Positions 11,697 through 45,536 of a DNA stretch of 64,000 bases are shown here, piece by piece. A model generated the notes under the pieces. The model had not been told where the DNA came from. It worked only from the letters and a program-made list of their open reading frames with translations, and did not search any database. The stretch's first letter is position 1, and each line of letters starts with the position of its first letter. The translations under genes and the position numbers were made by a program. The stretch comes from Sandaracinobacter neustonicus (lineage in GTDB: Bacteria; Pseudomonadota; Alphaproteobacteria; Sphingomonadales; Sphingomonadaceae): contig NZ_VFSU01000011.1 in NCBI RefSeq assembly GCF_006385875.1, positions 248,001-312,000 on the forward strand. Direction: 5' to 3'.

Positions 11697-11700
11697 GGCG

Positions 11701-12033: not shown

Positions 12034-12072
12034 GGGAAGTCTCCTGGGTTGCGGGTGAGAAAATGGAAGCAA

Positions 12073-20985: not shown

Positions 20986-22029
20986 CTATGCTGCGATCGC
21001 CATGAAGCGAGCGACGTCCTGGGGGGCGAGCTGCACGCGGATTCCTGACCGAAGCGCATCCAGTCCAAGCAGGCGCAGATCTTCATTGCAGTCCCCGAGC
21101 ACCGGCGAAAGCACGATCGCTTCGATCCCGGCCGCATTGGCGCGTTCGATCAGATTGTCCCGCGCGCCGTCTCCTGCCGGATCGTTGTCGCGGACGATGT
21201 AGAGCCTGCGAAGCGTCGACGGGAACAGGATGGCGGCAAGGTGCGCCGCTGAGAGCGCGGGCGCGATCGCCATGTCGGGTACGATCTGACGCAGCGATAG
21301 CATGGTTTCGATGCCTTCGCCTGCCGCCATCACATCTCCCGGCATGCCGATGCGGACCGCATGACCGAGCAGATCGCCCATCGCCTTGCGCTGCGTGTCG
21401 ATCGGCGCCTTGTCGGAGCCGTCTAGCGAGAGCCACGTGCGGTGGGCTCCCGTGATCGTGCCGCCCAGATCGGTGACGGCGGCGATCATCGCCGGCCAGG
21501 TTTCGGTCGGGCTATCGTCCTCGGGGCGGTAGTAGCACCTCGGATGGAATCGCAGGCTGCCGGTCCCGTGCAAAGCCGTAATCCCGCGTTTGCGGAGATA
21601 CGTTTCCACGATGGTGCCCGCGATCGGCTGCGACATGGCGAAGAGGCGGCGCGCCGCCTCGGACGATCCCGATGGGGCTGGCGCTCTGCCCTGTCGTGAT
21701 GGCGCCGGTGGCGGTTCGGGTTGCGGCATGCTGAGAAAGCTGCGTGCCTCTTCGGCGACATCGGTGAAGTCGATGAGGCCGAGCGATTCCCGGATCACGT
21801 CGAGCAGGTCGCCATGCTCGCCAGTCGCCGCATCGTTCCATTTGCCCGCTGGCCCCTTGGGGGTATCGCGGAGCCGCACAAACATCGAGCGGCCCCTGGC
21901 GTTGCGGACGTCGCCGACCTGCCAATAGCCGCCCTGACGGCGGCCGTTGGAAAGGTAATGGCGGCAGACCGCCTCGGCCTGTCGGCCGAGACGCTGCGCC
22001 AGATCGGAGGCGTTGATCCGTGTCATCAT
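20986..22029 (-). CDS. Toprim-domain primase-like protein (DUF7146-type)
   Basis: A 347-residue protein with a C-terminal Toprim domain: MAAGEGIETMLSL with the catalytic glutamate (237-242), then LYIVRDNDPAGDGA with the DxD pair (281-283). The N-terminal part (GGYWQVGDVRNARGRSMFVRL, GKWNDAATGEHGDLLDVI) fits primase-related proteins of ICEs and phages, though no CHC2 zinc finger is seen. It probably primes or processes transferred single strands. It begins with tandem ATG codons at 22029 that overlap the stop of the helicase gene, so the two are translationally coupled and likely work together. Confidence 0.85.
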   Translation of the reverse strand: MMTRINASDLAQRLGRQAEAVCRHYLSNGRRQGGYWQVGDVRNARGRSMFVRLRDTPKGPAGKWNDAATGEHGDLLDVIRESLGLIDFTDVAEEARSFLSMPQPEPPPAPSRQGRAPAPSGSSEAARRLFAMSQPIAGTIVETYLRKRGITALHGTGSLRFHPRCYYRPEDDSPTETWPAMIAAVTDLGGTITGAHRTWLSLDGSDKAPIDTQRKAMGDLLGHAVRIGMPGDVMAAGEGIETMLSLRQIVPDMAIAPALSAAHLAAILFPSTLRRLYIVRDNDPAGDGARDNLIERANAAGIEAIVLSPVLGDCNEDLRLLGLDALRSGIRVQLAPQDVARFMAIAA

Positions 22030-25000
22030 GCCGCCTCCCGCTCGGAGATGCGAGCCAGCGGATAGATGTCGAGCAGCTTTCCGAGGATGGCCGGCCCGGT
22101 TGCGTCGACGGGCACGAAGAAGCGCAGCTTCCACGAGATGATCTCGCTATACAGCCCGTAGCTCCGCAGCCGATCGCGCATCGTGTCGGTGAACCCGGAG
22201 AGTTCGATGCGGTTCGCGCCCATGACACGGACCCGGCGAAGCTGAAGGCCTTCGGCGAGGTCGAGGATGGTGCGGCCGTCGATCAGGGCCGCATAGGCGT
22301 CCTCCGCGCCGAGGTTGGTCGCGCCGGTCGAGGCGGCGTTGGCGGCCCAGGCGGGCGAGACGCGTCGGCCGATGATGCGCTCGCCGTCATCGGTTTGAAG
22401 GCGATAAACGCGCGTCGACTCGTTGGGCAGGCGCTTCCAGACGGGCAGCAACAGGCCGCTGACCATATGGATCGTGCTTTCGGTGAAGGTCGGGACCTCC
22501 GACACCTCGCGCTGCCAGATGGCGGCGAAGGTCTCGCGATCGGCCTCTTGCCAGTGGCTGTCGACCATCATTTTCAGCGACGCGTGATGCTGCTCCATCG
22601 GCCGGATCAGCCGGACGCGCCGTTCAATCTCGCCATCGTCGAGCATGAGCGACGGCGCCGGAATCTGCACAGCGGCGCGCCCGGATCGCTCGTTGATGAG
22701 CAGCCGGGCATGCGGATCGTCAAGCCAGGCCAGCGCGGTCTTCGTCGACGTCGGCCTATTGCGACGGCGTTCGGCGATACTGAGAAGGCGCGCTTCCGCG
22801 CCCGTCGCGGGATGGGTGTAGATGGTGGTCCGCTCCGTGACGATGAAGCTCTCTGCCGTCAGCGTCTCCAGGCCGGTGTCATAGACTCCGCTGGCGATCG
22901 CGCCCGCCACCTTCGACTCGAGCAGCAGTTCGAAGGCGGTAAACAGGATGCCCTGCAGCTCGATGGTCAGGGCGAGCAGCCGGTTGAGGAACGTCGTGAT
23001 CGGCGGCAATTCGTCCTTGATGCCGCCCTCGTCCATCAGCTTCAGGCCGGTGGCCTCCTCGAAACGCTGGAGCGAACAGCCTTCAACCTTGCCCCGCACA
23101 ATCTGGAGATAGAGCTGGCGAAGGGCATCGCGAGCGTAGGTCGATTCCAGATTGTCCTCGGGCCGGAACAGGCCCTGTCCGCCGGTCTGGCGCTGGCCGC
23201 GCGTGATCGCGCCCAACGTGTCGAGGCGGCGGGCAATGGTGGAGAGGAAGCGCTTCTCCGCCTTCACGTCCGTGGCGATCGGCCGGAACAGCGGCGGCTG
23301 CGCCTGGTTGGTGCGGTTGGTGCGACCAAGGCCCTGGATGGCGGCGTCGGCCTTCCAGCCCGGTTCCAACAGATAGTGAACGCGCAGGCGCTGATTCCGC
23401 GCGGAGAGTTCGGCGTGATAGCTACGCCCGGTGCCGCCCGCGTCCGAGAAGACGAGGATGCGTTTCTGATCGTCCATGAAGGCGCTGGTCTCGGCGAGGT
23501 TCGCCGATGGCGCGCGGTTCTCGACCACGAGGCGATGGCCCTTGCGCACGATGCGCCGCGATCGGCCCGTCACCTCCGCGACCATCTCCGTGCCGAAACG
23601 CTGCACGATCTGGTCGAGCGCGCCGGGCACCGGCGGGAGCGAAGCGAGCCGTTCGATCAGATCGTTGCGGCGGGCGACGGCTTCCCTGCTCTCGACAGGC
23701 TGGCCATCCCGATAGACCGGGCGTGACGACAGATTGCCCTCGGAGTCGGTGAAGGGCTCGTAGAGCTGCACCGGGAAGGAATGGGCGAGATAGTCCAGGA
23801 CATACTCCCGCGGCGTGATGTCCACGCGCACGTCGTTCCATTCCTCTGTCGGAATCTCCGCCAGCCGACGTTCCATCAAGGCTTCGCCCGTCGAGACGAT
23901 CTGGATCACGGCGGCATGGCCCGCATCGAGATCGCCTTCGATGGAGCGGATCAGCGTCGGCGTCTTCATCGACGTGAGCAGATGGCCGAAGAAGCGCTGC
24001 TTGGCGGACTCGAACGCCGAGCGGGCGGCGGACTTGGCCTGCTTATTCAGCGTGCCGTCGCTGCCGGTGATGTTGGCGGCCTGCATCGCCGCATCGAGAT
24101 TGTTATGGATGACTGCGAAGGCGCCAGCATAGGCATCATAAATGCCCCGCTGTTCATCGGTGAGCTGGTGTTCAACCAACTCGTATTCGACGCCGTCATA
24201 CGAGAGCGACCGGGCGGTGTAGAGGCCGAGCGATCTGAGATCGCGCGCGAGCACCTCCATGGCCGCCACGCCGCCGTCCTCGATGGCTTCGACGAATTCG
24301 GCGCGGGTGGCGAAGGGAAAGTCCTCCCCGCCCCAGAGGCCGAGCCGCTGCGCATAAGCGAGATTGTGGACCGTGGTGGCTCCGGTGGCGGACACATAGG
24401 TCACGCGCGCATTCGGCAGGGCGTGCTGGAGGCGCAAACCTGCGCGGCCCTGCTGCGAGGCGGCGACGTCGCCGCGTTCACCCTTTCCGCCAGCGGCGTT
24501 CTGCATGGCGTGCGCCTCGTCGAAGATGATGGCTCCATCGAAATCGGAGCCCAACCAATCGACGATCTGCCGGACGCGCGAAACCTTCTCGCCGCGGTCA
24601 TCGGAGCGTAGCGTGGCGTAGGTCGTAAATAGGACGCCTTCCGACAGGGTAATGGGCTTGCCTTGCGGGAAGCGCGACAGCGGCGTGACCAGCAGCCGTT
24701 CCATTCCGAGCGCCGACCAATCGCGCTGCGCGTCCTCGATCAGCTTATCGGACTTCGAGACCCAGACCGCCTTGCGGCGACCGCGCAGCCAGTTGTCGAG
24801 GATGATGCCCGCTGACTGACGGCCCTTGCCGGCGCCAGTCCCGTCGCCGAGCATGTAGCCGCGCCGGAAGCGCACGGCGTTCTCGGCGTCGGGCGGAGCG
24901 GCCTTCACGAGATCGAAGGTCTCATCGACCGTCCATGAGCCGGCGAGGAAATCGGAATGGGCCGCGCCGGCGAAGATGACGGTTTCGATCTGGGCGTCGG

Positions 25001-26357
25001 ACAGGAGATCGCAGATGTTCGCCGGCAGCATCGGCCGGTAGCTCGGCTTGGGCGGCGCGATGCTGGCCATGGCCGCCGACTGCACGAGCTTGGTCGGATG
25101 CGCCTGCGCGCCGGGGATGCGGATCGACTGCAACCCGTATTCTTCGTAGATCACCTCGGTGAGACGCGTGCCCTCGGGCGGCGTCCAGTCGACGATTTCA
25201 TAGGCGAGTTCGACACCGTCCGGCTCGATGGCGAGCGATGCGGCCGGGCGAGCGACCGAGGCGCGCGCGAGATAGCCGCGTACAGTGCGCGGCGTGGTGG
25301 CCGGGGTGGCGGGCGAAGCCGGCGTCGTCGCCGTGGCAAGGCGCGAGGGGACCTGGGCCCCGATCCAGCCGAGCAAGGTCGCGACATCCGGCGCAACGCC
25401 CGCAGAGGTCGGGAAGACGGCCGGATCGTCAGCCGGGAGCTTGTCGATGACGGTCAGCCGGGTCTCGATCGTCGTGCCGTGCCGAGCGTAGACCGAGCCG
25501 TCGATCGCTGCGGTGAAGACGACGCGGCCACGCTCCTGGAGCCGCCTGAAAGCGTCGGTCCAGGCCGGGATTTCGGGCCCGAAGTTCGCGCCGGTGATGG
25601 CGACCAGTCGGCCGCCGTCGGCGAGACGCGCCAGGGCCGAGGTGACATGCCGATAGGCGGCATCAGCCATGCGGCCGGAGACATGGGCCATGGCCGAGAA
25701 CGGCGGGTTCATGATGACGACGGCGGGCGCGTGGGTCGGCGGGAGATGATCGTCGATCTGGGCCGCGTCGAAACGCGAGACGGCGATGGCCGGGAAGAGA
25801 GCGGCGAGCAGATCGGCGCGGGCGTCGGACAGCTCGTTGAGGAGAAGTTCGCCGCCGCTGATCTGGGCGAGGATTGCGAGCAGCCCGGTGCCGGCCGACG
25901 GCTCAAGCACGAGGTCGCCCGGCGCAATGGCGGCCGCGGTCACGGCGGCGAGCCCAAGCGGCGTCGGCGTCGAGAATTGCTGCAATGCCTGACTTTCCTC
26001 GGAGCGGCGCGTGTGCGTCGGCAGGAGGCCGGTGATTTTCGTGATGGCGGAAAGCCGTGCAGCCGGAGAAGCGGCTTTGCGGAAAAGCGCCTTGCCGTAT
26101 TTCTGAAGGAACAGCACGGTCGCCGCTTCGCAGGCGTCGTAGGCCGTCTTCCAGGTCCATGCGCCGGTCGTGTCCGATGCGCCGAACGCCGCTTCCATCG
26201 CGCCGCGCAGCGCTGTGGCGTCGATGCGTTCGCCGCGCTCGAGGTGGGTCAGAAGACGCAGGGCCGCGCCGAACGCGGCGACCTCTGCTGCAGGAACGGG
26301 AACGACAGGAGGGGATGCGGCGGCGTCGGCCGCCGCTGATGTCAAAGCCAGGGTCAT
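22026..26357 (-). CDS. Methyltransferase / strawberry-notch-type helicase fusion
   Basis: A 1443-residue protein with two enzymes. Residues ~120-310 form an adenine-type DNA methyltransferase: EPSAGTG at 152-158 binds S-adenosylmethionine and NPPF at 217-220 is the catalytic motif. Residues ~430-1300 form an SF2 helicase of the strawberry-notch family: GDGTGAGKGR at 504-513 (Walker A), DEAH at 613-616, and a C-terminal helicase part with FSDAGGTGRSYHA and GLGRTNRTNQ. This giant is a hallmark of these ICEs. Host-range protection by methylating incoming DNA is a common guess but unproven. A radC-like leader may precede it. Start ATG at 26357, stop overlapping the Toprim gene. Confidence 0.92.
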   Translation of the reverse strand: MTLALTSAAADAAASPPVVPVPAAEVAAFGAALRLLTHLERGERIDATALRGAMEAAFGASDTTGAWTWKTAYDACEAATVLFLQKYGKALFRKAASPAARLSAITKITGLLPTHTRRSEESQALQQFSTPTPLGLAAVTAAAIAPGDLVLEPSAGTGLLAILAQISGGELLLNELSDARADLLAALFPAIAVSRFDAAQIDDHLPPTHAPAVVIMNPPFSAMAHVSGRMADAAYRHVTSALARLADGGRLVAITGANFGPEIPAWTDAFRRLQERGRVVFTAAIDGSVYARHGTTIETRLTVIDKLPADDPAVFPTSAGVAPDVATLLGWIGAQVPSRLATATTPASPATPATTPRTVRGYLARASVARPAASLAIEPDGVELAYEIVDWTPPEGTRLTEVIYEEYGLQSIRIPGAQAHPTKLVQSAAMASIAPPKPSYRPMLPANICDLLSDAQIETVIFAGAAHSDFLAGSWTVDETFDLVKAAPPDAENAVRFRRGYMLGDGTGAGKGRQSAGIILDNWLRGRRKAVWVSKSDKLIEDAQRDWSALGMERLLVTPLSRFPQGKPITLSEGVLFTTYATLRSDDRGEKVSRVRQIVDWLGSDFDGAIIFDEAHAMQNAAGGKGERGDVAASQQGRAGLRLQHALPNARVTYVSATGATTVHNLAYAQRLGLWGGEDFPFATRAEFVEAIEDGGVAAMEVLARDLRSLGLYTARSLSYDGVEYELVEHQLTDEQRGIYDAYAGAFAVIHNNLDAAMQAANITGSDGTLNKQAKSAARSAFESAKQRFFGHLLTSMKTPTLIRSIEGDLDAGHAAVIQIVSTGEALMERRLAEIPTEEWNDVRVDITPREYVLDYLAHSFPVQLYEPFTDSEGNLSSRPVYRDGQPVESREAVARRNDLIERLASLPPVPGALDQIVQRFGTEMVAEVTGRSRRIVRKGHRLVVENRAPSANLAETSAFMDDQKRILVFSDAGGTGRSYHAELSARNQRLRVHYLLEPGWKADAAIQGLGRTNRTNQAQPPLFRPIATDVKAEKRFLSTIARRLDTLGAITRGQRQTGGQGLFRPEDNLESTYARDALRQLYLQIVRGKVEGCSLQRFEEATGLKLMDEGGIKDELPPITTFLNRLLALTIELQGILFTAFELLLESKVAGAIASGVYDTGLETLTAESFIVTERTTIYTHPATGAEARLLSIAERRRNRPTSTKTALAWLDDPHARLLINERSGRAAVQIPAPSLMLDDGEIERRVRLIRPMEQHHASLKMMVDSHWQEADRETFAAIWQREVSEVPTFTESTIHMVSGLLLPVWKRLPNESTRVYRLQTDDGERIIGRRVSPAWAANAASTGATNLGAEDAYAALIDGRTILDLAEGLQLRRVRVMGANRIELSGFTDTMRDRLRSYGLYSEIISWKLRFFVPVDATGPAILGKLLDIYPLARISEREAA

Positions 26358-26460
26358 GGGAAATGCCTCGGGGAGAGCGGAGACGGGGAAGCCCGCGCGG
26401 CGCTCTCTCTCAACCGCCCGGACTCGTCCCGTTCCGGCGACCCTCTCCCTCTCGAGGGAC
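26358..26460 (-). ncRNA. Possible fourth, divergent structured 5' leader
   Basis: The region before the helicase gene has a purine-rich loop (GAGAGAGAGC on the minus strand) between GC-rich arms, and outer GGGACG/CGTC(T)CC arms with a bulge. It resembles the three better leaders at 28192, 30713 and 32228 but does not align cleanly. Confidence 0.35.
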
Positions 26461-27633: not shown

Positions 27634-28191
27634 TCAGGCGGCCTGCGGCAGCCGGAGAAGATCGGCGGCGGTTTCGCGCCAGAGCTGATCGACCAGACGG
27701 GCTTCAAGCCGGGAGGCCTGATAGCGAAGGTCGCGCGCTGATCTATGATCGCCGCGGCCGGAGGCGGCGAAGGCCAGGCCGCGAATCCGGCTCGATTCGG
27801 TGACGATGCGCCGGGCTTCGCGGTCACTGGCGACGGGATGCTGCCAGAGGATGACGCCGGCGCGGATGTCACCAGCGAGCACCAGGCCCAGCGCGTTATC
27901 CTGCACGACGATCAGCCGGGGCCGGAAATGCAGCGTGTCGTCCGGGCCGATGCGGATGTCGTCGCGCGCGACGCGCATGGCGGCAAGGATCATGGCCTCT
28001 TCAGGGGACGCCGCGTCCCCGAGCGGGATGGTCCGGTCGCAGCAGTCGGCGTCGGTGGCCTCGGCATAGCTGATCGTGCCGAGGCAGGAGACGCGCAGCG
28101 GGAGCTTTTGCGCGCGATGAAGTCTGGGAAGCACCTTCTCCGCGAGGATCTGACCGATCGAGACGAAGGGGGCAGCACTGGCATGGGTCAT
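27634..28191 (-). CDS. Conserved ICE protein, unknown function
   Basis: A 185-residue protein, MTHASAAPFVSIGQILAEKVLPRLHRAQKLPLRVSCLGTISYAEATDADCCDRTIPLGDAASPEEAMILAAMRVARDD at the N-terminus and a helical, Arg/Ala-rich C-terminus. I recognise no catalytic motif. Two adjacent cysteines (DCC) are the only notable residues. It is preceded by one of the covarying stem-loop leaders (28192-28250), with GGAG between that leader and the ATG, and is followed by an intrinsic terminator, so it is a single-gene unit under probable post-transcriptional control. Confidence 0.66.
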   Translation of the reverse strand: MTHASAAPFVSIGQILAEKVLPRLHRAQKLPLRVSCLGTISYAEATDADCCDRTIPLGDAASPEEAMILAAMRVARDDIRIGPDDTLHFRPRLIVVQDNALGLVLAGDIRAGVILWQHPVASDREARRIVTESSRIRGLAFAASGRGDHRSARDLRYQASRLEARLVDQLWRETAADLLRLPQAA

Positions 28192-28250
28192 CGGGAATAC
28201 TCCGCGACGGGCGGCGGAGGCCTCTCCTCCACCTGCTATTCCGTCACGGC
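28192..28250 (-). ncRNA. Structured 5' leader A (radC-like motif)
   Basis: On the minus strand outer arms GACGG/CCGTC (28245-28241 with 28210-28206) enclose an inner stem GGTGGAGG/CCTCCGCC that includes a U-G wobble, with a purine-rich AGAG loop. The stem ends two bases before the GGAG ribosome site. It aligns with the leaders at 30713 and 32228, with different inner-stem bases but preserved pairing. Confidence 0.62.
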
Positions 28251-28299
28251 CGATTGGCCCGAACTCTTACTCTCATCGCCGACGCCGAAGCCGATCCGG

Positions 28300-28521
28300 T
28301 CAGTAGCCGAAGGACCAGGAGGGCCAGGCCTGACCGTCGTCGGAGGCCGTGACCGCCTCGGCCAGATAGGTCGCGTCGCCCTCGATGAGGGAGGGATCGC
28401 GCACAGGAGTTTCGTCGATCACGGTGACGCGGGTCACAAGGCCGTCCTCGACCTCGACATGGACGGGCACGAGATACTGGAACACGAGGCGGCGCGTCGG
28501 GGACGCGTTGATAATGGGCAT
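28300..28521 (-). CDS. Small conserved ICE protein, 73 residues
   Basis: A 73-residue protein: MPIINASPTRRLVFQYLVPVHVEVEDGLVTRVTVIDETPVRDPSLIEG and then DATYLAEAVTASDDGQAWPSWSFGY. The alternating hydrophobic pattern suggests a beta-rich fold. GGAGA lies about seven bases before the ATG at 28521; the upstream in-frame extension to 28719 is unlike protein and runs through the parB gene on the same strand, so it is rejected. It lies behind the parB terminator and may rely on read-through or its own promoter. Confidence 0.68.
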   Translation of the reverse strand: MPIINASPTRRLVFQYLVPVHVEVEDGLVTRVTVIDETPVRDPSLIEGDATYLAEAVTASDDGQAWPSWSFGY

Positions 28522-28534
28522 GATGATCTCCACG

Positions 28535-28567
28535 AAAAATGCGGGGAGCGGCAAAGACCGCTCCCCG
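28535..28567 (-). terminator. Rho-independent terminator after parB
   Basis: On the minus strand CGGGGAGCGG-TCTTTG-CCGCTCCCCG, a perfect 10-bp stem (28567-28558 and 28551-28542), then CATTTTTCG. It starts nine bases after the parB stop. Confidence 0.87.
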
Positions 28568-28576
28568 TTGTCGTGT

Positions 28577-30712
28577 TCACTCGGCTGCGGCCAGGACGGT
28601 TTCCTCGTCCTCGGCATCGGCGCCCTCGTCCTCCTCGCCATCATCGGCGAGGAAGTCCGGCAGCGCCGTGTCATCGCCGCCATCCGTCTGCGCCTCGGCG
28701 CCGTTGGCCTGTTCGCCATCGAGCGAGGCGAGGCGCAGCGGCTCGGGCAACCAGCCGGTGTCGGCCAGCAGGCGCTCGGCTTCCTTGGCCATGTCGCCCT
28801 TCTTCAGGTGGTCGATGAGCTGCGCAGCCCGCTCGCCGGCGCCTTCGCGAACGGCTTCGAGGATGCGCGGCTTAGTGACACGGCCGAGATAGTTGCCCAC
28901 GGTCGGCCGCCAGCCCGCCGCCACCATGTCGAGGCCGGTTTCGCGAGCGAGCCGGTCCGCCTGCGCCATCCGCACGTCAAGGCCATGGCGGCTGACGCCC
29001 GAACCCGAATGCGGATTGGGCCGCTCGAAGAGCGCATTGACGCCGTAGCTCACGCACAAGGCCAGCAGGTCCATGCGCGTGCCGTCATCGAGATGGGTGA
29101 GCCAGTCCCAGAGGGCCTGGTCGTCGGCCGGGACATGGTCGCCCCAGCGTTCATGCCGCTCGTTCACGGCCCGGGCGGAGTCGCTCTCCTTCAGCTCGTC
29201 GGACTGAGCCGGAAAGAAGATGTGCCGGACACTGGCCTCGAGGCAGCCCGTCGGCGCGGTGTGCCGGAAGGTATCGCTGACCAGCTTGTGCAGCAACATG
29301 GTCATGGCGACCTGCGGATTTTCCGCCACGGCATTGCGCAGCGCCACCGTGCGATGGGCCGTCAGCTCGATCACGAGGCGTTCGGGCAACGGCTTGAGGC
29401 TGTCGTCCTCGTCCTCCTCGGGCTCGGCGGGCTGGCCTCCGATAGTGATGACCGCGCGCTGGACAGCGCGCGCATCGTCGCCATCGGCCTCGGTGTGGTC
29501 GTCGTCGCCTTCGGACTCGACCGGCGCCTCGTCGTCAGGGCGCACGTAGCCGCGCTCGACCAGCAGCGACCCGTCGCCGTCGAGACTGACGAAGACGCCG
29601 GCGATGCGGATCTCGGCCGGATCGTAGGTGACGGGCCGCCGTTCGAAGGCTTCCAGAGCCTGCTCGATCTCGCCCAGGCGCTGATCGATCTCGTCGGGCA
29701 GCTCGTCGGCCTCGGAATATTCCTCCTCGATCCGGTCATACTCGGCTCGCAACGCTTCACGCGTGGCGCGCTCCTCATCGGTCAGATCGACGATCGTGCC
29801 CGAAAGTTCGCGAAGGCCATGATCGTGGCCGTAGGGAAAGCTCATGGCCACATCGACCCACTTCCAGCCCTCAGCGGCGATTTCGTCGGCGCAGGTCTTG
29901 AGCTTCTCGGCGACGAGTCGATCGAGCAGAACGGGGTCCTGCAGCCAGCCGCCGTCGTCGTCCTGGAACAGGTCGCGCAGGATGCAGCCGCCTGCGGCCT
30001 GGTAGGCGTCGATACCGACGAAGACTGCGCGCTTGTCGGAGGCGCGGACCGTGGTCTCGGTCAGCATGCGGCGGATCTGATAGGGTTCCTTCGACCAGCT
30101 ATGGCTGATCGCTTCCCACACCTGCTCCTGACGCGCGTGGTCTTCTGAGATCGAGAAGGCCATGAGCTGTTCGAGGGTCATGCCGTTTTCGGCGTAGATG
30201 TCGAGAAGTGCGGGCGAGACGGTGACGAGCCGCAACCGCTGCTTCACCACCTGGACCGGGACGAAGAAGGCAGCGGCGATCGTCTCGTCGGTCATGCCCT
30301 TGTCGCGCATGGCCTGGAAGGCGCGGAACTGATCGAGCGGATGCAACGGCGCACGCTCGATATTCTCGGCCAGCGACACCTCGTCGATCAACACATCGGC
30401 CTTGGAGTCAGAGACGACGCAGGGGACCGGTGCGGTTTTGGCGAGGCGCTTCTGCTTCACGAGCAATTCGAGGGCGCGGTAGCGGCGGCCGCCGGCGGGG
30501 ACTTCGAACATGCCGGTCTCCGCACCTTCGGCGTTCACCACGGGACGGACATGGATGCTCTGGATGAGGCCGCGGCGGACGATGGACTCCGCCAGTTCGT
30601 CGATGGAGACGCCGGCTTTCACGCGCCGGACGTTGGACTGGCTCAGCACCAGCTTGTTGAAGGGGATGTCGCGTGAGGACGACAGGGTGATCTTCTGAAC
30701 GGCAGTAGCCAT
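28577..30712 (-). CDS. parB: ParB/RepB/Spo0J-family protein of the ICE, 711 residues
   Basis: A large ParB-like protein. Residues 1-120 hold the ParB nuclease/CTPase-type domain: IPFNKLVLSQSNVRRVKAGVSIDELAESIVRRGLIQSIHVRPV, then the GGRRYRAL box and a SLAENIERAPLHPLDQFRAF box. An HTH follows (DKGMTDETIAAAFFVPVQVVKQRLRL). The long remainder is rich in Asp/Glu and ends in an acidic tail. This is about twice the length of a chromosomal ParB, but normal for the version on these ICEs, where it may bind DNA broadly or regulate genes rather than partition. It has a structured leader upstream and a terminator downstream. Confidence 0.92.
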   Translation of the reverse strand: MATAVQKITLSSSRDIPFNKLVLSQSNVRRVKAGVSIDELAESIVRRGLIQSIHVRPVVNAEGAETGMFEVPAGGRRYRALELLVKQKRLAKTAPVPCVVSDSKADVLIDEVSLAENIERAPLHPLDQFRAFQAMRDKGMTDETIAAAFFVPVQVVKQRLRLVTVSPALLDIYAENGMTLEQLMAFSISEDHARQEQVWEAISHSWSKEPYQIRRMLTETTVRASDKRAVFVGIDAYQAAGGCILRDLFQDDDGGWLQDPVLLDRLVAEKLKTCADEIAAEGWKWVDVAMSFPYGHDHGLRELSGTIVDLTDEERATREALRAEYDRIEEEYSEADELPDEIDQRLGEIEQALEAFERRPVTYDPAEIRIAGVFVSLDGDGSLLVERGYVRPDDEAPVESEGDDDHTEADGDDARAVQRAVITIGGQPAEPEEDEDDSLKPLPERLVIELTAHRTVALRNAVAENPQVAMTMLLHKLVSDTFRHTAPTGCLEASVRHIFFPAQSDELKESDSARAVNERHERWGDHVPADDQALWDWLTHLDDGTRMDLLALCVSYGVNALFERPNPHSGSGVSRHGLDVRMAQADRLARETGLDMVAAGWRPTVGNYLGRVTKPRILEAVREGAGERAAQLIDHLKKGDMAKEAERLLADTGWLPEPLRLASLDGEQANGAEAQTDGGDDTALPDFLADDGEEDEGADAEDEETVLAAAE

Positions 30713-30770
30713 CGGGATGTACTCCGCGACGGGCGGCCGAAAGCCTCTCTCTCGGCCTCCAACCCGTCAC
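30713..30770 (-). ncRNA. Structured 5' leader B before parB (radC-like motif)
   Basis: On the minus strand outer arms GACGGG/CCCGTC (30768-30763 with 30733-30728) and inner arms GGCCGA/TCGGCC (30757-30752 with 30740-30735) close an 11-base loop containing GAGAGAGG. GGAG follows two bases after the outer arm, eight bases before the parB ATG. Confidence 0.66.
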
Positions 30771-30890
30771 GAAAATCCCGTTCCCCCCTCTTACTCTCTC
30801 ACCCCGAACCGCGAACGCGTCAGGAAAGCCTATCGCCGCGTGGAAGCGCAAAGCCTCAAAGCCGACTTCACGCCTCCACGTATTTGCGCA

Positions 30891-31262
30891 TCAATGCTCG
30901 CCGTGCCGTGACCGAGCGGCCTGATAGAGAATGCGCTCTGCCGCCCGGATGCTGCCGGCCTGCCGCGCGGCTTCCGCCCAAACGGAGAGCAGGAAATCCC
31001 CCGTGAAGAGGATGTCCCGTTCGATCCCCATGCCGAACGGCAGGCGGAGCGACGACATCTCCTGCAGCGAGAAGGAGCCAAGCTCAGGGTGACCGAGATC
31101 GGCCAGCCCGAAGAGCGTGTCGCCATCCTCGTCCAGTTCGGTGGCGAGCCAGACGCCTTCACCCAGCGGGTTGAAGAATTTCACGACCGGCACATGGTCG
31201 GCGTCGCGCTGCCGGCCGTTGGCAAAAAGCTGCTCACGCAGCTCGTCAGTCAGGAGGATCAT
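30891..31262 (-). CDS. DUF2958 family protein
   Basis: A 123-residue DUF2958 protein: MILLTDELREQLFANGRQRDADHVPVVKFFNPLGEGVWLATELDEDGDTLFGLADLGHPELGSFSLQEM. The family is common next to ArdC antirestriction genes on plasmids and ICEs, and its function is unknown. Its ATG overlaps the ardC stop by four bases (ATGA), so the two are translationally coupled and probably serve the same task during establishment in a new host. Confidence 0.9.
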   Translation of the reverse strand: MILLTDELREQLFANGRQRDADHVPVVKFFNPLGEGVWLATELDEDGDTLFGLADLGHPELGSFSLQEMSSLRLPFGMGIERDILFTGDFLLSVWAEAARQAGSIRAAERILYQAARSRHGEH

Positions 31263-32227
31263 GCCGCCCTCCTGTCACAATCCGGACAGCTCACCTCCGT
31301 GCGATCCTCCGCGTGTGCTTCGGGAAGGTGTGCGAGCAGCCAGTCGGCGGCCTTGCTCGCCTGACTTGCGGCCCGCACGATGGCGCGATTGTCCTCGCGC
31401 AGGACCTCGAGCCAGGAGCCGATATAGTCCGCGTGGCGGACGGTCGGGACGATGCCGAGTGAGGCGCAGCAGAAGGCGGCGTTCATCTCGGCCACCAGCT
31501 CCTCGAACGCATATTTCTTCGTGCCAAAGGAGCCGGAGAAGTCGCGGCCGAGACGGGTGGCGTTGCCGGTGGCGTGACCGAGCTCATGCAGCGCAGTGCG
31601 GTGCCAGTTGATCGGCTCGAAATAGGCCTGTGGCGGCGGCACCTGCACATAGTCGTGGGCGGGGACATAGAAGGCCCGATCGCCGCCGATGCGAAAGTCG
31701 ATCCTCGTCGCCCGGATCAGCGCTTCGACCTTGGGTTCGATCAGGCCTGGCGGCGGAGGCGGAGCCTCAATGGCGATATCGTCGGGCAGGCTCTCACACT
31801 GCGCCGCGTTGAAGACCGTGAAATGCTTCAGAAATGGAATAGCGGCCGCCTCTTCGCCGGTCTCGCGTGCGCGGCGCTTTTCGTCGTCGGGCACAAAGCG
31901 GTCAGCATAGACGATGGTCGTGCCGTGCTCGCCCTTCCGCACGTTTCCGCCGAGGGCGAGCGCCTGGCGAAAGGTCAGCCAATGCTGGGAAGGAAAGCCG
32001 TGCTGGATCACGGCGCCCCAAAGGATCAGGACGTTGATGCCGGAATACTGACGGGAGGTCGCCGCATTCCTCGGCATGGCGAGCGGCGCCTTCGCCGCAG
32101 CTGTACCCCAGGGCTGGACCCAGGGAAGCCGGCCATCCTCGAGTTCGGCGATGATCTTGTTGGTGATGTCGTCATAGAGATTGGTGCGGTCACCGGTACG
32201 ACGCGCGGCGCGATCCATTCTGGCCAT
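31259..32227 (-). CDS. ardC: ArdC-type antirestriction protein
   Basis: A 322-residue ArdC protein: an N-terminal ssDNA-binding domain (NLYDDITNKIIAELEDGRLPWVQPWG, YSGINVLILWGA, WLTFRQALALGGNVRKGEHG) and a C-terminal zinc metalloprotease-like domain with HELGHATG in YFEPINWHRTALHELGHATGN. ArdC shields incoming transferred DNA from restriction in the recipient. I place the start at the ATG at 32227, eight bases after GGAG. An ATG at 32242 would lie inside the structured leader. The leader has the same fold as those before parB and the 27634-28191 gene, hinting at shared control on entry. Confidence 0.93.
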   Translation of the reverse strand: MARMDRAARRTGDRTNLYDDITNKIIAELEDGRLPWVQPWGTAAAKAPLAMPRNAATSRQYSGINVLILWGAVIQHGFPSQHWLTFRQALALGGNVRKGEHGTTIVYADRFVPDDEKRRARETGEEAAAIPFLKHFTVFNAAQCESLPDDIAIEAPPPPPGLIEPKVEALIRATRIDFRIGGDRAFYVPAHDYVQVPPPQAYFEPINWHRTALHELGHATGNATRLGRDFSGSFGTKKYAFEELVAEMNAAFCCASLGIVPTVRHADYIGSWLEVLREDNRAIVRAASQASKAADWLLAHLPEAHAEDRTEVSCPDCDRRAA

Positions 32228-32284
32228 CGGGATAAACTCCATGACGGGCGCCGGGAGCCTCTCTCCCAGCCCTCAACCCGTCAC
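32228..32284 (-). ncRNA. Structured 5' leader C before ardC (radC-like motif)
   Basis: On the minus strand outer arms GACGGG/CCCGTC (32282-32277 with 32248-32243) and an inner stem CTGGGAG/CTCCCGG with a U-G wobble enclose AGAGG. The GGAG ribosome site follows. Inner-stem bases differ from leader B while pairing is kept, so the sequence covaries. Confidence 0.68.
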
Positions 32285-32463
32285 GGACGATCCGTCCGCA
32301 CTCTCGCTCTCGGGGCGTTGCGGGGTGTCCCCGCAGAAGGGGTCGGCCGAGACCGTGGCTCGGCCGCAGGGGAAGGCTTTCCCCGTTCAATCGATCCCTC
32401 GTGGCGACCGGAGCCACGAAGGACGGTTGGGCTGAGTTTGAAAGCTTTAAGGCCGTTGAAAAG

Positions 32464-32496: not shown

Positions 32497-33096
32497 ATGA
32501 TGGTGCAACGTCTGACCGAACAGATTCTGGCGCACGCCGAGACGCTTCCGGAAGGAACGCCGCTGGCGGCAAAGAGCCTTCTCCACCTCGGCAGCCGCGC
32601 TGGGGTGGACCAGGCTTTGTCGCGTCTTGCAGAACGAGGGCATCTGATCCGTGCCGGGCGCGGCGTGTATCTGCGTCCGGTGAAGAGCCGGTTCGGCGCC
32701 CGCGCGCCTTCGGTGGAAAAGGCCGTCGAGGCGCTGGCGGTGCAGCGTGGAGAAGTCATCGTGCCGAACGGCGCGGCTGCCGCAAACGCGCTGGGCCTGA
32801 CGACGCAGGTGCCGGTCCGCTCCGTTTATCTTACCTCGGGCCGGAGCCGCACGATGACCTTGGGCAAGCAGCTCGTCGAATTGCGCCATGCGCCACGCTG
32901 GCAGCTTGCGCTCGCCGATCGTCCCGCAGGCCAAGCGGTTCGCGCGCTAGCCTGGCTCGGGCCGGAGAAGGCGGAATCGGCGCTAAAGGCTCTGAAACGA
33001 AAGCTGCCGCCTACGGCGTTCGGCGAACTGGTGGCCGCCGCGCCGCAGTTTCCAACCTGGCTTGCCCGAAGCGTCGGCAAGGCGGTCCATGGCTGA
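32497..33096 (+). CDS. abiEi: AbiEi-type antitoxin (DUF6088)
   Basis: A 199-residue type IV antitoxin and repressor. An N-terminal winged helix (LTEQILAHAETLPEGTPLAAKSLLHLGSRAGVDQALSRLAERGHLIRAGRGVYLRPV) is followed by a C-terminal domain with VIVPNGAAAANALGLTTQVPV. It begins a rightward cargo block, opposite to the ICE backbone. AGGAG precedes two tandem ATGs; I take the first at 32497. A perfect inverted repeat upstream is its probable operator. Its stop overlaps the toxin gene by eight bases, the usual AbiE arrangement. Confidence 0.9.
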   Translation: MMVQRLTEQILAHAETLPEGTPLAAKSLLHLGSRAGVDQALSRLAERGHLIRAGRGVYLRPVKSRFGARAPSVEKAVEALAVQRGEVIVPNGAAAANALGLTTQVPVRSVYLTSGRSRTMTLGKQLVELRHAPRWQLALADRPAGQAVRALAWLGPEKAESALKALKRKLPPTAFGELVAAAPQFPTWLARSVGKAVHG

Positions 33097-34105
33097 TCCC
33101 TTTCTGTCCTTGTCGGCGGCGGACCGTCGTGACGTCTTGGGCGTCGCCGCCGATCGGTCGGGGCGGCCCGCCCATCTGCTCGAAAAGGACGTTTGGGTCG
33201 TCTGGGCGCTTCAGACAGTCTTCGGCTCCGCGCTCGGCGATCATCTCGTCTTCAAGGGTGGGACATCGCTTTCAAAAGCCTACGGCGTCATTCAGCGTTT
33301 TTCGGAAGATGTCGATCTGACCTACGACATCCGAGCGATCGCGCCTGATCTGGTGGGCGACAAGGGCGAGGCACTGCCGACAACACGCAGTGAAGAGAAG
33401 CGCTGGTCGAAGGTGATGCGCCACCGGTTGCCGGAGTGGATTTCGGGCACGGTGCAACCATTGCTCATCGACGCAATTGGAGCGCAGGGCGTTTCGGCGG
33501 CGACCCGGGTCGAGGGCGAGAAGCTCTTCATCGACTATGAAGCGACCTCAACCGGCTCGGGTTATGTCGCGCCCAGCGTCATGCTGGAATTCGGCGCCCG
33601 CTCGACCGGCGAACCGGCCAGCGTACGCGACGTGGTCTGCGATGCGGCGGGCCTGGTCGAGGGCGTGACGTTCCCGGCGGCGTCGCCGCGGGTGATGCAC
33701 GCCGAGCGGACCTTTTGGGAAAAGGCGACCGCGATACACGTTTTCTGCTTGCAGGAGCGGCTGCGCGGGGAGCGGTTCGCTCGCCATTGGCATGACGTGG
33801 TCCGCCTGGATGACGCGGGGATCGCCGACGCGGCAGCGGCTGACCGAGATCTCGCCCGCGCGGTCGCACGTCACAAGGGGATGTTCTTCGCTGAGAAGGC
33901 GGCGGACGGGGCGCCTGTCGATTACGAGGCCGCCGTCAGTGGATCGTTGCAACTCGTGCCGAACGGAGAGGCACGCGCGGCCCTGGCCTTCGATTACGAA
34001 CATATGGTGGGAGACGGATTGCTGCTTGAGGACGCCGAGTCTTTTGGGTTGCTGATCGAGCGATGCGCAGACATCGCCGAACACGCAAATCGCGCGGCGG
34101 GATAG
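33089..34105 (+). CDS. abiEii: AbiEii-type nucleotidyltransferase toxin
   Basis: A 338-residue toxin of the AbiEii/AbiGii family. LVFKGGTSLSKAYGVIQRFSEDVDLTYD contains the GG(T/S)SLSK and D-x-D motifs of the DNA polymerase beta-like nucleotidyltransferase fold, and HAERTFWEKATAIHVF is the downstream K-containing motif. Relatives modify tRNA 3' ends, blocking translation, and abort phage infection. All motifs are present, so it is probably active. The start at 33089 overlaps abiEi by eight bases (ATGGCTGA). It lies directly before the Hachiman genes, forming a defence cluster. Confidence 0.92.
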   Translation: MADPFLSLSAADRRDVLGVAADRSGRPAHLLEKDVWVVWALQTVFGSALGDHLVFKGGTSLSKAYGVIQRFSEDVDLTYDIRAIAPDLVGDKGEALPTTRSEEKRWSKVMRHRLPEWISGTVQPLLIDAIGAQGVSAATRVEGEKLFIDYEATSTGSGYVAPSVMLEFGARSTGEPASVRDVVCDAAGLVEGVTFPAASPRVMHAERTFWEKATAIHVFCLQERLRGERFARHWHDVVRLDDAGIADAAAADRDLARAVARHKGMFFAEKAADGAPVDYEAAVSGSLQLVPNGEARAALAFDYEHMVGDGLLLEDAESFGLLIERCADIAEHANRAAG

Positions 34106-34122
34106 TAGAAACTGGGGAAAGC

Positions 34123-34905
34123 GTGGGGTTCTACGAGAAATGGTGTGAAGCCACCAAAGAGAAAGACAAGCGCAAGCACTATTGGACCTATGTCGAGAAG
34201 GGTGGCGGGCGTGACGAGATCAGCGCCGATCTCGCGAAGACCATTCGCTCCCATTATGACCGGCTCGAGCGCATCGCCGAGGATGTGGAGCGGCTTGGCT
34301 ACAAGATCGCCGCCAAGATTCTGAGCGAAGCGATGCCACATACGGACAAGGGCCGCTCTGGCGATCTTGGCGAAATCCTTGCGACTGAGCTGGTGGAGGA
34401 AGAAATCGGCCTGCGCGTCCCCGTGCGTCGGCTCCGCTACAAGGACGGCCGCAACATGGCCATGCGCGGCGATGACTTCATCGGCGCCGGCTATGGCGGC
34501 CAGGACGAGAAGCTTTGGCTCCTGAAGGGGGAAGCCAAAAGCAACAAGAAGCTCGGCAAATCCACCGTGACAAGCGCTCGTAAGGTGCTCGATCGCGACA
34601 ATGGCCGCTGCACGCCGGACTCGTTGCTGTTCGTCGCCAACCGCCTCCTGGAGAGCAATGATCCCGACGAAAACGCGCTAGGCCGCGACCTCCGCGATGA
34701 GGTGGGCTTGAAGTCGCTGCGCGCCGATCGCATCGACCACATGCTTTTCACCGTTTCCGGCAACGGCCCCCATGCCTCGCTGAAGGAAGATCTCGAGGCC
34801 GCCGGGACCAATCGCGACCACTACGTCGTGAACATCCACGTCGAAGACCACCAGGACTTCATCGCGGCCATGTACGAAGGGGCGCAAGACCTTGGAGACG
34901 CCTGA
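34123..34905 (+). CDS. hamA: HamA, DUF1837 nuclease of a Hachiman defence system
   Basis: A 260-residue DUF1837 protein, the effector of Hachiman antiphage systems. GDLGE (80-84) is followed by RRLRYKDGRNMAMRGDDFIGAGY with D117/D118 and by LWLLKGEAKS with E137 and K139, together a PD-(D/E)xK-type nuclease site. The fold fits cleavage of DNA once released by the partner helicase. I place the start at the GTG at 34123, just past abiEii, with GGGGAAA upstream; a longer frame from 34063 would overlap abiEii. It overlaps hamB by 14 bases. The catalytic residues look intact. Confidence 0.88.
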   Translation: MGFYEKWCEATKEKDKRKHYWTYVEKGGGRDEISADLAKTIRSHYDRLERIAEDVERLGYKIAAKILSEAMPHTDKGRSGDLGEILATELVEEEIGLRVPVRRLRYKDGRNMAMRGDDFIGAGYGGQDEKLWLLKGEAKSNKKLGKSTVTSARKVLDRDNGRCTPDSLLFVANRLLESNDPDENALGRDLRDEVGLKSLRADRIDHMLFTVSGNGPHASLKEDLEAAGTNRDHYVVNIHVEDHQDFIAAMYEGAQDLGDA

Positions 34906-37900
34906 CGAGCTGACCGCCTTCCTCGCCACCGCGACCGTCGACGGCATCCTCGGCCGTTTGCTCTATCGTGGTGCTGCGTGGTCGCTGATGCGGGAAGCAG
35001 GCGTATTGCCGCAGACCGCGCCGCCCTTGGGCGCGACAATCGAAACCGACCTTGCCGAGCACGGCTTCGCCTTGCTTCGGGGCGCCATGGCCTTGCGTGC
35101 CCAGACCGGCGCGTCAGACTTGACGAACAAGGCATTTGAACGGGCGGCCAACGCCTTCGAAGCGCTGGTAAGAAACGGTGATCCTGAGGCACCCGATCGC
35201 GGCTTCCGCCGCACCATCGCGGCTGCCGCCTATCACCTGGCCGGCTTCTCGGCCGTCGCCTATTCGTTGTTCAAGGAGACGGATGAAGATCTCAACGCAT
35301 CGCCCGGCGAAACGGCAATCCGTCATCTCATCCTGCGGGATCTCGATCAGTTACGTGCCTTCGTTCGCGACTGGCTTAGCGACGAGGCCCACGGCGATGA
35401 GCAGATGGGCGAAGCGCTGGGCGGCGATGAGCCTGATATCGACGACGTATTGTCTACCATCCTGAATACGACGATTTGCCGGGCTCTTGCCTACTTCGAC
35501 TTCGCGCTGGAAACGGGGGAAGAGGAGCCGATCGACGCCGCGCGCGATCTGCTGGCCACTGCGGTCAGCCTCGCCGGCAACGCCGGGAATGTCCCGTTGT
35601 GGTGGATCTCGAATCTCTGCCGTCACCTGATTGACGACCTCTGGCAGCATTCGTTGCACGGGAACCTGCCAACGGAGCCACCCGCTGGAACGGAGGAGAA
35701 ATATCCGGACCTCCGGCGGCTGTTCATCGGTTCGCTGTACGCCCGCAAAACATCCGAGGTGGAGCTTTGGCCGTCTCAACGCGAGGCCGCTCGTCGATCT
35801 ACGGATGTCACCGACGATCTCGTTGTGGCGCTTCCCACCAGCGCGGGGAAGACGCGCGTTGCGGAAATCGCCGCATTGATGACCTTGTCCTCCGCGCGGC
35901 GGGTGTTGATCGTCACGCCGTTGCGTGCGTTGTCGGCCCAGACCGAACGCTCCTTCCGCAAGACTTTCGCACCTCTCGGGTTCAGCGTCTCGTCGCTGTA
36001 CGGCGCCAGTGGTCTTTCGGCAGGTGACGAGGATGCACTGCGCACCCGCGAGATCATCATCGCCACACCGGAGAAACTCGACTTCGCGCTTCGGAGCGAT
36101 TCCTCCCTGATCGATGATGTCGGTCTGATCGTTCTCGACGAGGGCCATATGATCGGGCCCAGCGAGCGTGAGATCCGCTACGAGACGCTGGTGCAGCGTC
36201 TGTTACGCCGCGCCGACGCGGCCGATCGCCGGATCGTCTGCCTGTCCGCGATCCTGCCCAGCGGCGACGAGTTGGACGACCTTACCGCCTGGATACGCTC
36301 GGACGAACCCGGCGAGCCCGTGCGTTCCGACTGGCGACCCACGCGCCAGAGGTTCGGCGCCCTAACCTGGCGCGGCAAGGATGCGCTCCTGCGGCTTGAC
36401 CTCGACGACGGCGGTCCTTTCCTCGACAAGTTCGTCGAGGAGAAGCCTGCGCGCGGAAGGGAGAAGAATCCGTATCCTCGGAAGAACTCACATCTCGCCC
36501 TCTTTGCGGCGTGGGAATTCGCCGGCCAGGGCAAGCGCACTCTGATCTTTTCCACCCAGGCCAACTGGGTCGAGAGCTACGGCAAGCAGGTCGTTGACCT
36601 GTGTAAGCGCGGCTATCTCGACTCCCTGCTGGAGGATGAGGGGTCGGTCGCGCGCGCGCTGGAAGTCGGCAAGGAGTGGCTGGGCGAAAACCATCCGGCC
36701 GTTGCCAGCCTCAAGGCCGGCGTCGCCATTCACCACGGCCGCCTGCCAAGCCCGTTCCTGCGCGAACTGGAAGTCCTTCTCTCGGAGGGTGTGCTCAAAG
36801 TCATCGTCGCTTCGCCGACGCTTTCCCAAGGGCTCAACCTCAACGCCGCCGTCCTGCTCGTACCGGCACTCTACCGGGCCGGCGAGAAGATCAAGGGCGA
36901 GGAGTTCGCCAACGTTGCAGGCCGGGCCGGGCGCGCGTTCGTCGACGTCGAGGGCCTGATCGTCCATGTCATGTTCGACAAGACCGACTGGCGAAAGAAG
37001 GAGTGGAGGAAGCTGGTCGCCTCCGCCAAGGCCCGCACGTTGAAAAGCGGCCTCATCCAGATCGTAGCCGAAATCCTCGAGCGCCTGTCGCGAGAGGGGG
37101 TGCTCGATCGCGATGACGCCTGGGAGTATCTCGCCAATTCCCGGGAGGCGTGGCGATCGCCCGACGAGGAGGCCGAGGTGGCTGAACGCCTTGCCGCCGC
37201 CGTGGAATACGACGCCGGCGGCGACGAGAACGATGACGAGGACGAGAGCGAGGACGACCAAGAGGAAACGATCGACGAAGAGCCGTTGTCGCAGATTGTC
37301 GAGCGCCTCGATGCGACCGTGTTCGGCCTGATCGAAGCTCTGGATGCGGATCGCGCCGATCTCCCGAAGTTGCTGGACGAGGCCCTCAAAGGATCACTCT
37401 GGGCTCGTCAGATTGCGCGCGAGGAAGAGGACGTCGCGCCCCTGCACAAGAGGGTGTTCGAAGCACGCGCCGACCTCATTTGGAAGACCACCTCCGAACA
37501 GGCGCGGCGCGGGCATTTCGCGATGGGGGTTGGACTTGAAGCCGGCCTTTCTATCGACACCATGGCTGATGAACTGGCCCAGCTGCTCGATCGCGCCGAC
37601 GATGCGGCGCTGAGCGGCGACGTCGACGAGCTCGCCGACGCCCTTGGTGGCCTGGGAGAACGGTTGCTGTTCATGCGGCCCTTCATCCCCGACAAGAAGA
37701 ACGCGCTGCCGGCCAATTGGAAAGTCATTCTGCGCGCCTGGATCTCAGGCGACGCGGTCGAGAAGATCGGACCGCAGAACATGCGGGCGGTCGAAGAGGC
37801 TTTCACCTATCGCTTGGTCTGGGCGCTGGAAGCCGTCCGCACCCGCCGCATGTCGCTCGGCTGGTCACCGGAGACGGTGGCGGGCGGCGCAGCGGCGGCG

Positions 37901-45141: not shown

Positions 45142-45459
45142 TACGCGATTTCCCCCTGGAGAGCGGGCTGTTTCCGCGGAAGCACCACGGAAGCAGCCGG
45201 ATGAAAGTCGGAGCGAAGTGTCGGATATGGATTTCGGCGGGGAAAACCGGATTGTCCATACGTTTCAAAGCGTTGTAGTATCATGGCGTGTCCTAGCGTG
45301 CATTTCTGATAGCCAGGACAAATTGCTCCGAAGGCTGAAGTCAAGGGCTGCTGGTTTGTGAGAGACGTAGAAAAGGAGATTGTTTACAAAGGTTTGCGGG
45401 AGTTACCGTTGAGGCTTCCACCCTACAGGTTTTCCGCGTAAGCACTGCGTAAGCAACAG
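45142..45459. other. Probable attachment-site region between integrase and tRNA-Arg
   Basis: No gene is seen in these 318 bases. Short direct repeats occur at both ends: CGGAAGCA twice near 45175-45195, and GCGTAAGCA twice at about 45437-45453, just before the tRNA. Such repeats could be integrase arm sites. A partner att core is not in the window, so the exact ICE boundary cannot be fixed. Confidence 0.4.
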
Positions 45460-45536
45460 GCACCCATAGCTCAGCTGGATAGAGCGCTACCCTCCGAAGG
45501 TAGAGGTCTCAGGTTCGAATCCTGATGGGTGCGCCA
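45460..45536 (+). tRNA. tRNA-Arg (anticodon CCG), CCA encoded
   Basis: A full cloverleaf can be drawn. The acceptor stem is GCACCCA/TGGGTGC and the D-stem GCTC/GAGC. The anticodon stem is CTACC/GGTAG with loop CTCCGAA, giving anticodon CCG. The T-stem is TCAGG/CCTGA with loop TTCGAAT. A G discriminator and genomic CCA end it at 45536. Its 5' end faces the ICE integrase, unusual for an element inserted in a tRNA 3' end. Confidence 0.96.

Follow-up and report, generated by a model that had tools for sequence, protein, structure and literature searches.

In the Bacillus plasmid pLS20, a repeated structured sequence named EGeRS1 stands immediately 5' of the probable ribosome sites in several operons, that of ardC among them; it is 420–750 base pairs (bp) long and belongs to Bacillus plasmids (PMC8708921). 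Excerpts of that paper report no constitutive promoter inside EGeRS1, carry a heading saying that it prevents read-through from upstream promoters, and describe its mechanism as not known (PMC8708921). Here we describe a leader of about 85 nucleotides (nt), called type A below, in a stretch of 64,000 nt from Sandaracinobacter neustonicus (contig NZ_VFSU01000011.1, positions 248,001 to 312,000; this whole stretch is called the window). Three copies lie on the minus strand, before the genes for an ArdC-like protein, a ParB_N protein and a protein of 185 amino acids (aa). Set beside EGeRS1 by published description, the leader has only about 85 nt and holds its Shine-Dalgarno (SD) sequence within the fold; by analogy, EGeRS1 appears to be the nearest known system in logic. 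We read the leader as an undescribed cis-acting structured RNA in the 5' untranslated region, and we infer that it co-regulates the translation of conjugative-establishment genes through a factor. We rate it as a new structured mRNA leader of a generally known kind, with an unusual regulon. Its conservation, fold, strand, placement relative to SD and AUG, gene set and range within the search were computed here.

Other systems resemble the leader in part. In plasmid p576 a common upstream sequence, EGeRS2, defines an establishment regulon including ardC, as the leader does, but it consists of strong promoters under an element-encoded repressor and so works at the DNA level (PMC8708921). Frpo/ssi hairpins stand before anti-defence genes of conjugative elements; they act as single-stranded DNA with the -35 and -10 boxes in duplex, whereas in the leader the mRNA strand folds and no conserved promoter lies upstream (PMC11541004; compared by description). 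The STAXI motif is structured and is found near SSB, antirestriction and integrase genes, but is built of pseudoknots in two or three repeats with frequent UUCG loops (PMC2864571); Rfam scans gave no STAXI match here. Open-licence PMC main texts yielded no description of the leader. The main text of PMC10359603 mentions none of the terms untranslated, leader, stem-loop, ParB, antirestriction and establishment; that of PMC11963761 lacks untranslated, stem-loop, ParB, antirestriction and ardC; and that of PMC8627217 lacks ParB, antirestriction, leader and helicase.

An earlier interpretation made from the letters of the window alone (the sequence-only reading) had taken the three leaders for a covarying radC-like RNA and named the Rfam radC model as a check. 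The radC RNA is known to precede genes for DNA-interacting and antirestriction proteins, and Rfam lists it as cis-regulatory, like the role proposed for the leader. Its model, RF01754 (curated cut-off 40 bits), has no match at the gathering threshold in the window or in six related plasmid loci. Even with permissive filters and E ≤ 10 it has none in 28150-32400, where the only matches of any family were two to archaeal snoRNAs, both within coding sequence and taken as chance. As a positive control, the same model passed its cut-off in 4 genomes of a 299-genome phylum sample, all from a single genus outside the window's class, and the window's own genome was not among them. Two earlier radC searches (0 of 59 and 0 of 240) had no positive control and are not used as evidence. 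In the reverse direction, a covariance model of the type-A leader (R1) was run on six radC loci (E ≤ 10, filters off); none of its 22 matches overlaps the radC position, and the best, at 17.1 bits, lies outside it. The radC RNA is a multi-hairpin structure of about 149 nt with CUUCAA and CCCAGG stretches, as against one interrupted hairpin of about 85 nt in the leader. The two are alike solely in gene context (ParB_N and ArdC downstream). Among all families of Rfam 15 the leader has no gathering match, and no plausible one at E ≤ 10. What stands of the earlier claim is one covarying structured RNA before several mobile-element genes, but not its identity as radC.

Anatomy of the leader and the strand that folds

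In 34 copies from the window, its own genome and plasmids, the type-A element follows one order: an AGAGnnAGAG box, a variable spacer, an outer helix, an inner helix, the GGAG of the ribosome site, 7–9 nt, and AUG. The outer helix is centred on GTGACGG/CCGTC; its arms form an inverted repeat and hardly vary in their core. The inner helix is capped by a five-base loop, mostly AGAGG, and both the box and this loop are almost invariant letter by letter.

The coordinates in the window, all on the minus strand, were read directly off the sequence. The leader of the ArdC gene (32228..32312) has its AGAG box at 32310-32301, the outer helix at 32286-32277 / 32248-32239, the inner helix at 32270-32263 / 32257-32250, the AGAGG loop at 32262-32258, the SD GGAG at 32240-32237 and AUG from 32227. 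In the leader of the ParB_N protein (30713..30799) the box lies at 30797-30788, the outer helix at 30772-30763 / 30733-30724, the inner helix at 30757-30749 / 30743-30735, the AGAGG loop at 30748-30744 and GGAG at 30725-30722, with AUG from 30712. For the 185-aa protein (leader 28192..28275) the corresponding positions are 28273-28264 (box), 28249-28240 / 28211-28202 (outer helix), 28233-28226 / 28220-28213 (inner helix), 28225-28221 (AGAGG loop) and 28203-28200 (GGAG), with AUG from 28191. Model R1 gives the three leaders 95.5, 93 and 86 bits, respectively, all three being members of its training set. They also match exactly a pattern of AGAGNNAGAG, TGACGG and CCGTCNNGGAG with gaps, which was composed after the family was known. 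It has these 3 matches only in the 64-kb window (28200-28273, 30722-30797 and 32237-32310) and 0 in 100 dinucleotide shuffles. Folded singly, each of the three leaders forms two stacked helices, and the gap from GGAG to AUG is 8–9 nt. The sequence-only reading had therefore placed the leaders correctly, on the minus strand and immediately 5' of the start codons at 28191, 30712 and 32227, and the outer arms, AGAGG loop and GGAG are as it described them. It had put the GGAG just past the stem, but two of its Gs are paired within the base of the outer stem. A fourth, divergent leader on the minus strand, before a strawberry-notch type helicase gene, and seven further type-A copies outside the window in the same genome come in addition to what it had listed.

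At the 5' edge, conservation sets in sharply with the AGAG box. In 169 non-redundant 80-nt flanks all upstream columns stay at or below 0.11 bits, and no conserved promoter (-35/-10) at a fixed distance was found in them, whereas eight of the ten box columns reach 1.7–2.7 bits, a height partly due to selection since the box served as anchor. In two plasmids the ParB leader begins 38 nt past the stop of the upstream gene on the same strand, an operon-internal place. An upstream peptide within the leader was also considered and set aside: the distance from TGACGG to ATG falls into all three frames (98, 36 and 79 of 213 leaders), so that no reading frame appears conserved, which the unequal classes keep short of proof.

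The fold is carried by covariation. Model R1 has 97 matches over 54 loci, training sequences included. Two alignments were scored, identical leaders being counted once: A3 with 89 distinct leaders, and A4 with 147 distinct leaders from named genomes, collected with a pattern that omits the inner helix and representing 150 of the 156 R1 matches, from 100 of 120 named-genome loci. In A3, standard pairs fill 96.8% of 1498 paired cells, and in 11 of the 17 pairs both partners have changed. A3 scores 0.348 for covariation, as compared to 0.217 in shuffled alignments (0 of 500 reach it) and 0.075–0.106 with slid partners. For A4 the score is 0.345 as compared to 0.222 (again 0 of 500), slid partners give at most 0.110, and all seven pairs of the inner helix show double changes. 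Covariance support across homologues is thus present, and the suggestion that the inner stems differ in sequence yet keep pairing is borne out on a family scale. When the interior is folded without fitting, AGAGG comes out as the hairpin loop in 84 of the 139 leaders of the named-genome pattern set described below.

It was also claimed earlier that the wobble pairs mark the minus strand as the RNA, and here too the family agrees. Among the A3 cells outside Watson-Crick pairing, G-U occurs 229 times and A-C 20 times. Shuffling within columns gives 255 G-U and 60 A-C (with an A-C minimum of 48 among 500), so that A-C is reduced threefold and G-U by one tenth. Were the template strand the one to fold, G-U should be depleted and A-C tolerated; since the reverse is found, the strand that folds is, judged from its wobbles, the mRNA-sense strand, which speaks against a single-stranded-DNA promoter on the template.

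The placement of the ribosome site is equally regular. The start codon follows GGAG by 7–9 nt in 87 of 89 leaders, the remaining 2 ending at a locus border, although this set is partly selected because R1 contains the ATG. With a pattern that contains no start codon, one is found 5–10 nt past GGAG in 139 of 139 leaders (138 with ATG; looked for 3–19 nt on). Two Gs of GGAG lie in the base of the outer helix: of 88 sequences, 85 pair columns 29-84 and 83 pair columns 30-83. Partition-function folding, applied to 212 leaders, leaves the SD Gs unpaired with a mean probability of 0.063, as compared to 0.19 at 400 control GGAG-ATG sites from the same loci (the accessibility, linker, upstream-element and frame counts in this text exclude the duplicate own-genome loci L001-L005 and L021-L028). 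A structured cis-regulatory mRNA leader is in general expected to show a covarying fold on the mRNA strand and a fixed place relative to ribosome site and AUG, and both are found here.

Proposed control of translation and rival explanations

Because two Gs of the SD GGAG are paired in the base of the outer helix, translation would start poorly in the resting fold. A putative trans-acting factor probably reads the conserved single-stranded AGAG sites, in the 5' box (AGAGnnAGAG) and in the AGAGG loop, and would stabilise or open the fold. The proposed regulon comprises ArdC, the ParB_N protein, DUF932 and the 185-aa family, and, behind a longer variant of the leader, a strawberry-notch helicase and ArdB-type antirestriction genes. 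In this way genes scattered over the element could be translated together upon entry into a new cell or in preparation for transfer, and the leader probably switches its genes jointly. We infer that translation is the controlled step, that it is reduced at rest, that a factor acts in trans and that the timing follows transfer; we give a probability of about 0.6 to translational control by the SD-pairing outer helix, with a putative factor reading the AGAG sites.

Several observations weigh against it. The AUG is as accessible as in the controls (0.488 as compared to 0.515, p 0.25), and the A and G of GGAG are not significantly less accessible (p 0.09); the site is thus occluded in part. Extending the helix across the SD–AUG linker finds no support from the linker by itself (z -0.9, 364 of 2000 permutations) or together with the AUG (z -1.4, 174 of 2000), and it scores only once GGAG is included (z -2.7, 4 of 2000). 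In the outer helix, five core pairs are nearly invariant and hence have little to say on RNA or DNA, while the inner pair 51-67 is unpaired in 35 of 146 cells of A4. Fitting to R1 biases both A3 and A4 towards the structure of that model, and their related sequences are not independent. A switch by a helix of the spacer against the SD–AUG linker was tried as well (128 of 213 leaders after removal of near-duplicates); being unsupported on the linker alone, it stays weak.

A wider version, which we regard as doubtful, is that of a conjugation-wide RNA regulon. Here, mRNAs in the donor would be silenced by an element-encoded factor on the AGAG sites, and transfer would bring in the DNA without the factor, giving a burst of translation until the factor returns. 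If true, ArdC, ParB_N, DUF932, the 185-aa protein, the helicase and ArdB would be made in one burst, a zygotic induction by translation in integrative and conjugative elements (ICEs) and plasmids across Alphaproteobacteria. The published models for joint activation of early genes, as far as the extracted sources describe them, are DNA-level promoters (Frpo, EGeRS2) or have no known mechanism (EGeRS1). A short, portable and well-defined RNA common to the gene set makes the joint switching of anti-restriction and other early genes testable.

The rival explanations part company with translational control at different points. Purine-rich AGAG stretches resemble ribosome landing sites, and 5' stems can stabilise mRNA. 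The leader could accordingly be a constitutive enhancer of translation or an mRNA stabiliser, a 5' stem with a purine-rich standby site that is unregulated and has spread with its genes, as its company with ParB at 50% identity or more would allow. Against it, two SD Gs are paired in the resting fold, the box and loop are conserved beyond the need of a plain stabiliser, and a second leader type before similar genes points to a regulon; we consider this explanation unlikely. It is a little less likely still that the inverted repeat of the outer arms, with its nearly invariant core, is a DNA operator or centromere-like site before controlled genes, bound for example by the ParB_N protein, which is encoded in the gene set and has a match in 17 of the 21 leader-bearing genomes. 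In a DNA site the letters themselves would be conserved, but all seven inner pairs vary and still pair, with G-U tolerated; nor would an operator be expected to come with an unpaired AGAG box, an AGAGG loop and a constant spacing from SD and AUG, and one genome (G123) has the leader without any ParB match. More improbable is a promoter or initiation site on single-stranded DNA like Frpo/ssi, where a hairpin of the transferred strand lets RNA polymerase start in the recipient. The setting is the same, with anti-restriction and other early-type genes of a conjugative element, and Frpo/ssi promoters precede leading-region genes (PMC11541004). This would require the template strand to fold, against which stand the wobbles (A-C 20, G-U 229); the 5' side of the leader has no conserved -35/-10, and the helix ends at the SD, 7–9 nt from the AUG in nearly all copies, leaving scant room for a start site and a leader. 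Membership in the radC family, or a variant of it, agrees with the context of DNA-interacting and antirestriction genes but is rejected at the level of the Rfam model, on score and on architecture with a working control, and is practically excluded.

Genes and genomes that carry the leader

The ArdC-like gene (31259..32227, minus strand, 322 aa) encodes an ArdC-N domain and a zincin-like metallopeptidase (Pfam PF08401, PF18818), and the ParB_N protein gene (28577..30712, minus strand, 711 aa) matches Pfam PF02195 and PHROG 7783. The 185-aa protein gene (27634..28191, minus strand) has no match in Pfam, PADLOC, PHROG or NCBIfam. Its family (11 members in alignment A7) has no relative in the PDB (best E 0.38), and its AlphaFold model is weak (mean predicted local distance difference test, pLDDT, 63). 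These assignments confirm the ParB, the ArdC and the unfamiliar protein named in the sequence-only reading. ArdC-N domains have been suggested to be single-stranded-DNA binders, and effectors of invading elements are known to include ParB domains (PMC5512222, in extract).

Across the family the same genes recur. In the set of 89 leaders the downstream proteins cluster into ParB (38), ArdC (26), DUF932 (12), the 185-aa family (6) and singletons (5). In the pattern set of 139 the numbers are ParB 64, ArdC 37, DUF932 24, 185-aa family 9 and other 5, three of these last being merely 15–30 aa long. The DUF932 label rests on the annotation of one plasmid and similarity to it, one member having a Pfam match below cut-off (20.1 as compared to 23) and another none. 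In 289 genomes, with at most three ParB candidates considered in each and the results compared by eye, the leader stands directly upstream in 22 of 22 listed homologues of at least 50% identity, and in 1 of 14 more distant ones. The 4 of 21 leader genomes without a ParB match at 1e-30 are G068, G123, G154 and G304; in G123 the leader precedes a DUF932 gene and in G154 a 75-aa ParB start. The genes behind the leader are plausible establishment genes, which would act at entry. As a handle for searching, a covariance model or pattern finds candidate establishment genes (185-aa family, DUF932, DUF6878) without protein similarity. Two leaders (L018:10901-10991 and L124:695-784) precede proteins sharing RLRVLSLGAGVQSTTLALMAAHGEIGPMPDC near the N-terminus, of which the L018 protein is without Pfam match; by this shared motif they are a further candidate for an establishment gene.

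The genome of the window has ten type-A copies. Five are on contig C11, three in the window and two about 80 kb off that seem to belong to a second element; the other five, which are divergent, are on contig C5. The latter (G000, L057; 20.5 kb) perhaps is a plasmid; its leaders lie at 8619-14731 on both strands and precede two ParB-like, two DUF932-like (by cluster) and one DUF6878 gene. In whole-genome samples under strict filters, R1 finds the leader in 21 of 289 genomes of the class (one, G068, at 28 bits only) and in 25 of 299 genomes of the phylum sample, all 25 in the window's class or family. A pattern scan of named genomes, which omitted loop, inner helix and start codon, gave at least 120 stretches with at least 139 distinct leaders. 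Among 80 stretch titles listed, 75 are alphaproteobacterial by name and five unspecific ('bacterium', 'Proteobacteria'). Among plasmid records, 75 match the ParB leader and 11 the leader at 28.2 kb. By these matches, and within the genomes searched, the leader is common to ICEs and plasmids of Alphaproteobacteria. Three contigs of a viral collection (L193, L194 and L195) also bear a type-A leader, being either misfiled plasmid pieces or phage-borne copies.

A second leader type and the mobile-element setting

The divergent leader (type B) lies at about 26358..26458 on the minus strand, before the strawberry-notch type helicase gene (22026..26357, minus strand, 1443 aa; Pfam PF13872, PF13871). 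It has an AGAG box, a longer hairpin with GAGAGAGAG loop, and CCGCTCTCC before the ribosome site. R1 matches it weakly (26353-26454, 20.8 bits, E 0.0077); R2, a type-B model from nine aligned leaders (A2), one of them (L019) before an antirestriction gene, gives it 91.5 bits, the window copy being among the nine training sequences. In 64 chosen loci R2 has 47 matches at E ≤ 0.1, and 27 are below 1e-10, including the nine training sequences. The type is defined by the AGAG box, a GAGAGAG loop and the conserved CCGCTCTCC upstream of the ribosome site. R2 weakly matches type-A leaders too (e.g. L119, E 1e-4), which speaks for kinship of the two types. Among 33 of the 47 matches examined, 23 precede proteins with similar N-termini, six of which are strawberry-notch proteins by Pfam or plasmid annotation. 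Two matches precede genes of Pfam Antirestrict (PF03230), which we take to be the ArdB/KlcA family, and two more precede genes similar by their first residues alone. Covariation over the nine sequences is modest (7 of 26 pairs) and the covariation term, +1, is unfavourable; the type-B fold is therefore uncertain, and kinship with type A is a proposal. Seven low matches of the type-B region to unrelated Rfam families at E ≤ 10, all below gathering, are taken as chance. Residues about 120-320 of the strawberry-notch protein (22026-26357, minus strand), in its N-terminal part, have weak methyltransferase-type matches.

The window looks like it holds an ICE, with genes for a type IV secretion system, a coupling protein, RepA, ParA and a RovC-type domain (PF10074), which is presumably the former DUF2285. 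The best NCBIfam match of its relaxase is RlxS, at 594 bits under a model cut-off of 850. The ICEMlSym elements are known to carry rlxS as well as regulators of the DUF2285 type (PMC8627217, PMC11963761, PMC10359603, each in extract). A tyrosine integrase gene adjoins a tRNA gene at 43786-45533, which is probably one end of the element.

Directly 5' of the AGAG box of the ArdC leader lies a separate conserved element of about 73 nt with hairpins (32312..32384, minus strand). It consists of GGGGAAAGCCTTCCCC, then a stretch whose halves vary between species but look complementary, and then CCCC..GGGG..CCCCGCAACGCCCC. RNAalifold on 40 copies gives two hairpins, the middle one not being found. Among 210 leaders with enough upstream sequence, it precedes the box in 29-30 of 59 ArdC leaders, 13-15 of 36 DUF932 leaders, 0-3 of 92 ParB leaders and 0 of 14 leaders of the 185-aa family. 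On the other side, divergent from the ArdC gene, AbiEi/AbiEii and Hachiman HamA/HamB defence genes occupy 32500-38416 on the plus strand. In four related plasmids, defence-type genes or integrases are likewise found around the ArdC gene, as if this place were a hot spot for cargo.

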